Assembly: GCF_002892535.1 (NCBI RefSeq) | Contig: NZ_CP024847.1 | Coordinates: forward strand, 1,674,001-1,738,000 | Direction of reading: 5' to 3' | Source of the DNA: Aquella oligotrophica | GTDB lineage: Bacteria; Pseudomonadota; Gammaproteobacteria; Burkholderiales; UBA11063 | Length of the DNA stretch: 64,000 nt | Shown: positions 10,176 through 64,000 of the stretch, in pieces | Layout: each line of letters starts with the position of its first letter | Numbering within the stretch: the first letter of the stretch is position 1 | Notes under the pieces: generated by a model | The model's database searches: none | What the model was told of the DNA's origin: nothing | What the model saw: the letters and a program-made list of their open reading frames with translations, nothing else | Position numbers and translations under genes: made by a program

Positions 10176-13031
<2,856 letters not shown>

Positions 13032-13357
13032 CTATTATTTTAATAGTCTCTTTACCGTATTAATAGCTAACTTTGTCAGCTTAGTTAACGCGATAAAAAA
13101 TTCAAGTAAACTGCTGATTCTCAAAGATTCGTTTCCAAACCTCTAAGATTTTATTTTTTACTGTATGAGTTTCTTTTTGCTTAAGTTTTTTACATATGCA
13201 ATCTACCCGCATATAATCCTTTACTCCAAAGTAGTTACCTACTTTGAATTTAGTTTATGCTTATAAGATTTGTAAGTCCGATTTATTCGGAATTACAAAG
13301 ATTATTAGCATTAATAATATACGCGTTGGTAAATTTTTAATATCTAACTCTATCCAT

Positions 13358-13368
13358 CTTGTTAAAGA
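13358..13368 (-). promoter_or_regulatory. boxA antitermination site in the 16S-23S spacer
   Basis: Read leftward the sequence is TCTTTAACAAG, identical to the boxA-like site in the operon leader (15491-15501). Such sites bind NusB-NusE and protect rRNA transcription from Rho; a second copy before 23S is usual. Assignment rests on the consensus and position. Confidence 0.75.
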
Positions 13369-13435
13369 TCTTAGTACCAAAGTACTTAATATAAATGACT
13401 TAATCTTAATCTCATCTACATTAGACACTCTGTCT

Positions 13436-13512
<77 letters not shown>

Positions 13513-13529
13513 GTTATCTCACCTATACC

Positions 13530-13605
13530 TGGTGGAGGATGACGGGATCGAACCGACGACCCCCTGCTTGCAAAGCAGGTGCTCTCCCAGCTGAGCTAAT
13601 CCCCC
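13530..13605 (-). tRNA. tRNA-Ala (TGC)
   Basis: A 76-base cloverleaf with encoded CCA: acceptor GGGGGAT/ATCCTCC, D-arm GCTCAGCTGGGAGAGC, anticodon stem-loop CCTGCTTTGCAAGCAGG and a T-arm containing GGTTCGATCC. The anticodon is TGC. It is the first tRNA after 16S, so the order is Ala then Ile. Confidence 0.97.
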
Positions 13606-13733
13606 AAATGTCTTCGTACTACTTTGTCGCTCAATTGCTCATTTAGATCACTAAACTTTGCAATTTCGCTCCGCGCATTACTCGCATTTTTTATACTCTG
13701 TATTTCTACCCAGTACTTCTAATCTTAACTACT

Positions 13734-63702: not shown

Positions 63703-63732
63703 TTGACAAAAATATAAATATTGCGCTAGAAT
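63703..63732 (+). promoter_or_regulatory. Strong promoter of the Ser/Cys-rich peptide gene
   Basis: TTGACA (63703-63708) and TAGAAT (63727-63732) with an 18-base spacer. The -35 is perfect and the -10 differs in one position. It lies 60 bases upstream of the 34-codon gene, with no other start codon on a good ribosome-binding site in between. Confidence 0.75.
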
Positions 63733-63792
63733 CTTTGGGTGATTAGCTAATAAGCTGACACAAAATGTATCAATTATTGAAAAGGAAGCAAA

Positions 63793-63897
63793 ATGATACA
63801 CTACTTTGATAACTACCGGATAAAAACTACAGTACCGTTTAATGTATCTTCTAAATCTACTTCTATCGCTTCTTCATTCTCTTCTTGTTGTTGCTAA
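63793..63897 (+). CDS. 34-residue Ser-rich peptide ending in three cysteines
   Basis: The ATG at 63793 stands behind AAAGGAAG, and the frame ends with TAA after 34 codons. The N-terminal half, MIHYFDNYRIKTTVPFNV, is mixed. The second half has eight serines, one threonine and a C-terminal Cys-Cys-Cys (32-34). Eleven of the last 16 residues are Ser or Cys. The architecture fits either a modified-peptide precursor (leader then Ser/Cys core) or a regulatory leader peptide that senses Ser-tRNA or Cys-tRNA. An AT-only hairpin follows at 63908-63924. I do not recognise a family; the promoter and site argue that it is real. Confidence 0.6.
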   Translation: MIHYFDNYRIKTTVPFNVSSKSTSIASSFSSCCC

Positions 63898-63907
63898 TCT
63901 CTAGCTC

Positions 63908-63924
63908 AAAAATTCCAAATTTTT
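63908..63924 (+). terminator. Weak AT-rich hairpin after the peptide gene
   Basis: AAAAATT pairs with AATTTTT around CCA, followed by ATTTTATT. With only A-T pairs it is a weak terminator or attenuator at most. Confidence 0.35.
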
Positions 63925-64000
63925 ATTTTATTGTTTATTCTGTAGCTATTTAATAACTAAAAATATATTTTAGTCATATATTTTTGTTTGCTACATTTTA

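Follow-up and report, generated by a model that had tools for sequence, protein, structure and literature searches.

In the classical attenuators of the trp and his operons, the leader peptide contains a run of the regulatory amino acid, and the tna operon has, next to the stop codon of its leader, a Rho site that is masked. Seliverstov et al. (2005; PMC1262725) described short open reading frames (ORFs) that have a series of Cys codons close to their stop and precede cys operons in Mycobacterium and Propionibacterium acnes, and a Cys-run ORF before cbs of Bifidobacterium longum; these were predictions, with no conserved terminators, and Rho was proposed. In mycobacteria, polycysteine leaderless ORFs are reported to attenuate expression in response to cysteine (Canestrari et al. 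2020, Mol. Microbiol.; cited in PMC9031893, PMC9094748 and PMC13236596). In Rhodobacterales, the uORFC-8-2 motif comprises an upstream ORF with tandem Cys codons before cysS (PMC8632094). The tna operon of Escherichia coli is Rho-dependent (PMC1262725) and is subject to leader-peptide arrest (PMC3902921). Because polycysteine leaders have been described in actinobacteria and a Cys-coding upstream ORF in Rhodobacterales, the kind of element considered here is already known.

The locus that we describe in Aquella oligotrophica resembles the actinobacterial polycysteine leaders in being a short ORF with a Cys run near its stop, placed before cys genes and followed by no obvious terminator. It differs in coming from another phylum, in the TCT-TGT-TGT end shared by two Aquella operons and in the SET gene that stands first in one of them. 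Mycobacterial leaders are leaderless according to the title of Canestrari et al., whereas the Aquella leader is preceded by a Shine–Dalgarno (SD) sequence and a 5′ untranslated region (UTR). With uORFC-8-2 it shares tandem Cys codons and a logic based on Cys-tRNA; as described in PMC8632094, however, that motif, located before cysS, includes two stems and ends in a run of U, whereas in Aquella no strong intrinsic terminator was found and the genes are mccB/mccA-like and cysK/cysE. In contrast to the trp and his attenuators, no GC-rich terminator and antiterminator pair was found in Aquella, and its Cys codons directly abut the stop. What is new here is the betaproteobacterial genus, the presence of two operons whose leaders end alike, the SD-led translation and the SET gene. 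No report of a Cys leader in Neisseriales or Aquella was found in the literature searched, which misses most subscription journals.

A. oligotrophica P08T is a tap-water member of the Neisseriales (PMC6612550). Its genome is a single contig of 2,820,660 bases, and the window, that is, the whole stretch of 64,000 nucleotides analysed here, corresponds to bases 1674001–1738000. Coordinates are window positions unless marked L002; adding 61000 to an L002 position gives the window position. G000 denotes the A. oligotrophica genome, G005, G007, G014, G019, G020 and G022 are genomes of the genus, and L073 is a contig of a MAG. The features are as follows.

63703..63732, + strand: sigma-70-type promoter TTGACA-N18-TAGAAT, 11 of 12 consensus matches.
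63782..63788, + strand: SD-like AAGGAAG, read directly; AAAAGGAAGC is also present in G019.
63793..63897, + strand: ORF of 34 codons for a candidate leader peptide, MIHYFDNYRIKTTVPFNVSSKSTSIASSFSSCCC, stop TAA; counterparts at all six operon copies found.
63847..63885, + strand: Ser-rich, pyrimidine-rich second half of the ORF; seven of eight Ser codons are TCT.
63883..63899, + strand: TCT-TGT-TGT-TGC-TAA-TC, comprising the last Ser codon, the Cys codons (63886–63894) and the stop (63895–63897); unchanged in five of six operon copies.
63898..64000, continuing to genome position 1738166, + strand: beginning of the untranslated region of 269 nt that leads up to the SET gene, with more C than G.
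L002:3167-3568 (genome 1738167–1738568), + strand: SET-domain protein gene, just right of the window.

An initial annotation of the window had already pointed to a near-consensus promoter, a ribosome-binding site and a 34-codon frame with a Ser-rich second half and three Cys codons at its end, and all of these were read at the positions given above. The −10 hexamer is followed 60 nt downstream by the ATG, and the peptide ends in Ser-Ser-Cys-Cys-Cys before its TAA.

The decisive genes had been expected to the right of the window, with cysteine or other sulfur genes among the candidates, and a cysteine operon was indeed found there on the same strand. The leader stop is followed, after 269 bases, by a 133-codon SET-domain gene (Pfam SET), then after 41 bases by a cystathionine gamma-lyase-type gene and after a single base by a cysteine synthase/cystathionine beta-synthase-type gene. 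The lyase-type protein falls below the curated cut-off of all 25 NCBIfam models among the matches listed, the best being bifunctional cystathionine gamma-lyase/homocysteine desulfhydrase (569 of the 594 bits needed), and its best solved relative is an enzyme of that same name (7d7o). The synthase-type protein passes the cysKM subfamily cut-off of NCBIfam and has an O-acetylserine lyase (5xw3) as its best solved relative. We take the two genes to be an mccA-mccB-like reverse transsulfuration pair, with a lyase of the mccB type and a synthase of the mccA type. Genes resembling metN, metI and metQ lie farther downstream. In the same flank, a glycerol-3-phosphate dehydrogenase-like gene is apparently split into two frames (L002:12160-12468 and 12639-13709), adjoining GlpK- and GlpF-like genes.

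The SET protein appears to have intact HGLGLF, RFINH and GEEI..NY motifs in G000. Its gene was found in exactly five of 23 genomes of the genus, the same five that carry the close lyase, and, at an E value of 1e-12, in four of 300 genomes of the order, all four within the genus (G019 lay outside that draw). It is the first gene of the operon at all six copies and, in these searches, was seen only with the operon (in the genus and in L073).

A short frame in AT-rich surroundings, with low-complexity Ser codons, could be a chance ORF in a 5′ UTR, but both the rarity of its end in the genome and the recurrence of that end at other loci make this scarcely conceivable. The pattern TGYTGYTGYTAR, which leaves out ends of the Cys3-TGA type, occurs at 22 genome sites compared with six for a reversed control pattern. 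The other 21 sites all lie within stop-free frames of 198–660 codons; thus the window site alone belongs to an intergenic ORF that has a start of its own. The 13-mer TCTTGTTGTTGCT occurs at exactly two sites in the 2.82-Mb genome, both strands included, and these two sites belong to two different leaders, the second of which is described below. Across the 23 genomes of the genus, the exact 13-mer has 15 sites, comprising nine in leaders, five within long frames and one unexplained. For comparison, only one of 84 short ATG frames from 57 codirectional gaps of the same genome (283.5 kb) has Cys-Cys among its last six residues. A similar end recurs in 12 leaders of two operons. Judged on these sequence patterns, the 34-codon ORF is real and no chance frame.

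To follow the operon in relatives, we used its lyase, which has homologues of at least 73% identity in five genomes, all of one genus, and of at most 48% elsewhere (61 genomes, including its own and those of relatives). A scan of named genomes gave five loci, four of which were taken as copies already known; the one new locus was L073 (JAIEMU010000019.1), an Aquella-type operon contig within a MAG labelled Sphingobacteriaceae, a placement that is probably a binning error. All six operon copies found carry a leader of 33–37 codons ending in SCCC or SCCCC (the start codons in G022 and L073 are uncertain), so the same end that the initial annotation had proposed to look for in related genomes is there at every copy. 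The 17 bases TCTTGTTGTTGCTAATC are identical in five of the six, and G022 has one TGT more. The last Cys codon is TGC in all six, though TGT is the commoner codon in sampled genes (183 versus 68). By contrast with this shared end, the N-terminal parts of the leaders are unalike between species. Among the 30 lyase loci listed from 44 matching genomes, five were operon copies; of the 25 remaining, distant ones, two had a chance Cys-Cys frame and the others had none.

Two further observations concern these loci. In G014, which has no operon copy by SET and lyase searches, an exact TCTTGTTGTTGCTAATC (G014:C112:21674-21690, minus strand; L101/L159) forms the end of a short frame, MNDHHHQWSIILSCCC, located in the gap that separates two long opposite-strand frames; it is perhaps a remnant leader. 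A motif like TTTTTTGAAANNNGACAAAGNCTAAGATTCAAAGATGA, recognized by eye in L064, L065 and L073, lies upstream of the leader in G022 and, more loosely, in G005. In the stretch from leader to SET gene, it recurs in G022, and L073 has a partial, inverted form. It looks like a dispersed repeat.

A second leader of this kind stands before cysK-cysE. In G000 it reads MATNIHLSFTLADKHNICFADSFLSQAFPLSCCCCCN, ending in …LSCCCCCN, and a pattern search that allowed one mismatch gave a leader before cysK-cysE in G007. The cysK product passes its own NCBIfam cut-off in both G000 and G007; the protein encoded by cysE in G000 is recognized by a serine O-acetyltransferase model (EpsC) and falls 0.85 bits short of the TIGR01172 cut-off. 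Close cysK orthologues (75–100% identity) number seven in the 23 genomes, and six of the seven have a leader, G020 being the one without. The leader of G019 is of the same type as that of G000, those of G007, G022 and G014 end in SCCC, and that of G005 ends in SCCR, with just two Cys. No leader was found at two more distant cysK homologues (33–35% identity) or, apart from two chance frames, at the 25 cysK loci listed, of 74 matching genomes outside the genus. With both the window leader and the cysK-cysE leader in G000, A. oligotrophica has two such leaders, before two cysteine routes. Six window-operon leaders and six cysK leaders thus make up the small sample considered below, all from one genus except L073; all 12 have Cys-Cys or a longer run near the C-terminal end, and TCT-TGT-TGT is common to all of them.

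The initial annotation had weighed a ribosomally made, modified peptide against a stalling leader for sulfur genes. The Ser/Cys-rich end behind a polar N-terminal part would suit a RiPP or another secreted Cys-rich peptide, yet the next 12 kb contain 15 frames taken as genes, and in the 14 of them that were scanned no modifying-enzyme family appeared (one of these lacks any family); to the left of the peptide, the scan covered three genes. The N-terminal half, which would be the recognition leader, evolves almost freely, and peptides of this form accompany cysteine operons at loci of two kinds. We consider this reading highly improbable. The sulfur-gene alternative fared better: the cysteine operon on the right, the Cys tail at six of six copies and the second leader before cysK-cysE all agree with it, and the stalling itself we infer.

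Substitution patterns point to the tail as the constrained part. Between the window leaders of the two closest species, G000 and G019, the first half shows a pS of 0.57 and a pN of 0.33, and the second half has no synonymous and two nonsynonymous changes; for comparison, pS is 0.31 in the lyase, 0.21 in SET and 0.50 in the ferredoxin gene of the same neighbourhood. In the UTR after the leader, 249 of 262 aligned bases are the same (272 columns). In this pair, therefore, with the first half diverged and the tail near-fixed, the Cys codons and not the whole peptide are under selection, and the constraint appears to act on codons and RNA rather than on a free peptide. In other pairs (the G000/G019 and G022/G014 cysK leaders, and G022/L073), pN is about equal to pS over the ORF, so protein-level selection on the remaining peptide is not evident there.

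We propose that the window ORF is very probably a cysteine-sensing leader peptide, that is, an attenuator, for the SET-mccB-mccA-like operon; this confidence covers the cysteine sensor alone and not the Rho step discussed below. The layout, as read from sequence, runs from promoter and SD through a leader whose Cys codons adjoin the stop to an untranslated stretch and the operon, and is similar before cysK-cysE. The window promoter is the best of six promoter-like sites in 693 scanned bases (the other five match at nine of 12 positions), although a count of six is not above that in shuffles (mean 5.5). At 11 of the 12 leaders, the best upstream site within 120 nt has at least 10 of 12 promoter matches, a count made without a shuffle control; the exception is the G005 copy of the window operon, with a best site of eight of 12. 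Several of the 12 leaders have poor SD sites.

When Cys-tRNA is scarce, ribosomes would come to a halt at the Cys codons that end the leader, and the operon would be expressed; when it is plentiful, ribosomes would finish the leader and release at its stop, and expression of the distal genes would be cut. Release could expose the RNA past the stop, richer in C than in G, to Rho, leading to termination before the first gene, and a stalled ribosome would mask the Rho tract, much as in tna. The likeness to tna lies in this possible masking, by which a Rho site next to the stop codon of the leader would be hidden. The trigger differs: in tna it is free tryptophan acting on the nascent peptide, whereas in Aquella it would be uncharged Cys-tRNA, a missing charged tRNA.

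The Ser codons raise the question of a second signal, in which a shortage of serine, from which cysteine is made, would also stall ribosomes. Eight of the 34 residues of the window leader are Ser and seven of these are TCT, compared with 237 TCT among 1,476 Ser codons in sampled genes, and TCN codons serve as a serine sensor in Bacillus subtilis sinR (PMC3862929). The cysK leaders, however, have anywhere from two to eight Ser with mixed codons, only the TCT before the Cys run is present in all 12 leaders, and TCT could be favoured by pyrimidine richness alone. Serine sensing in addition to cysteine sensing therefore seems unlikely to us.

How a cysteine sensor would be coupled to transcription or translation is less clear-cut. 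In the 80 nt after the stop, C exceeds G by 5 to 13 at all 12 leaders. An excess of 5 is reached in nine of 57 control gaps of the same genome (mean −1.7, s.d. 6.4) and in 17 of 105 stretches just upstream of genes, and the mean of the leaders was reached by zero or one of 200,000 control resamples, whether computed from all 12 or from eight representatives (G019, twice, L073 and G014 were dropped as near-duplicates). A rho gene is present in the genome. The C-over-G excess together with the rho gene suggests Rho-dependent attenuation, with the proviso that composition is a weak marker for Rho sites. Given a cysteine sensor, we judge the chance that Rho is its output switch to be about even.

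No internal promoter above chance was found between leader and first gene in any of 11 stretches (170–200 of 200 shuffles were as good; of the 12 stretches, the G019 cysK one was left out). No Rfam family (all 4,227, release 15) matched above its gathering score in L002 and seven further loci. We found no conserved RNA structure in the window-operon leader, and the UTRs align poorly beyond close pairs. The weak AT hairpin of the initial annotation survives as an inverted repeat, AAAAATT/AATTTTT at 63908–63924, but not as a fold, its MFE being 0 kcal/mol. Three candidates were rejected: a trp/his-type GC-rich terminator with U run and antiterminator, which was not found between leader and first gene; a strong and conserved intrinsic terminator, given no match in the pattern scan and hairpins that are weak and scattered; and base-pairing between leader tail and SET SD as a general mechanism, as detailed below.

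The same cysteine sensor could instead act through a weak intrinsic terminator, through translation attenuation by pairing of the leader tail with the SD, or through mRNA stability, a family of outputs that we hold to be plausible though somewhat short of even. The mycobacterial cases are called translation attenuation (PMC13236596, PMC9031893). In G000, an 11-bp stem made up nearly entirely of A/U pairs forms 61–89 nt after the stop (−4.9 kcal/mol) and is kept in G019 (−4.5 kcal/mol) despite a changed loop. A weak hairpin with a loose T tail is likewise common to these two genomes, 143–146 nt after the stop (143 in G000; −4.9 and −6.5). Weak hairpins of this type, with five of the next eight bases T, occur in five of six window-operon UTRs; their stems have two to three G-C pairs (one in L073 has five G-C among 12 pairs). 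Against a terminator, the 693-base pattern scan gave no terminator-like site after the leader, the weak hairpins lie at corresponding places in the G000/G019 pair only, with those of other copies elsewhere, only one of six cysK UTRs has one, and six of the 12 leaders have none. In G000 and G019, nine bases of the leader tail can pair with the SET SD, but pairing as good was found in 13, 15, 70, 33, 89 and 5% of shuffles for the six copies. At the cysK leaders, six of six folds allow pairing of the Cys codons with bases a short way downstream, in most cases right after the stop, with one two-sided change, seen in a single sequence; the hairpin count, however, is not above that of shuffles (79 of 500 as high). 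The A/U stem and the Cys-codon pairing at cysK lend some plausibility to an intrinsic or translational output beside Rho.

A cysteine-sensing leader does not by itself account for the SET gene, and one further proposal links the two. Protein methylation by the SET protein would drain SAM to SAH and homocysteine, from which the two downstream enzymes would make cysteine, and the cysteine-starvation switch would work as a polycysteine attenuator dependent on Rho, with an origin independent of the actinobacterial ones. We regard this full scenario as quite unlikely. A ‘methyl sink’ role of histones has been put forward for yeast and human cells (PMC10610432), and a SET methyl drain, if true, would be a bacterial counterpart of it.

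If the reading as a cysteine sensor is true, tRNA-Cys-sensing leaders would extend from actinobacteria and Rhodobacterales to a betaproteobacterial lineage, in which they would precede two operons of one pathway. The locus would also offer a compact natural test, in an AT-rich genome, of whether amino-acid attenuation can have Rho as its output. The co-regulated SET gene is possibly the surprising part, as it would tie a SET-domain protein to the supply of cysteine.
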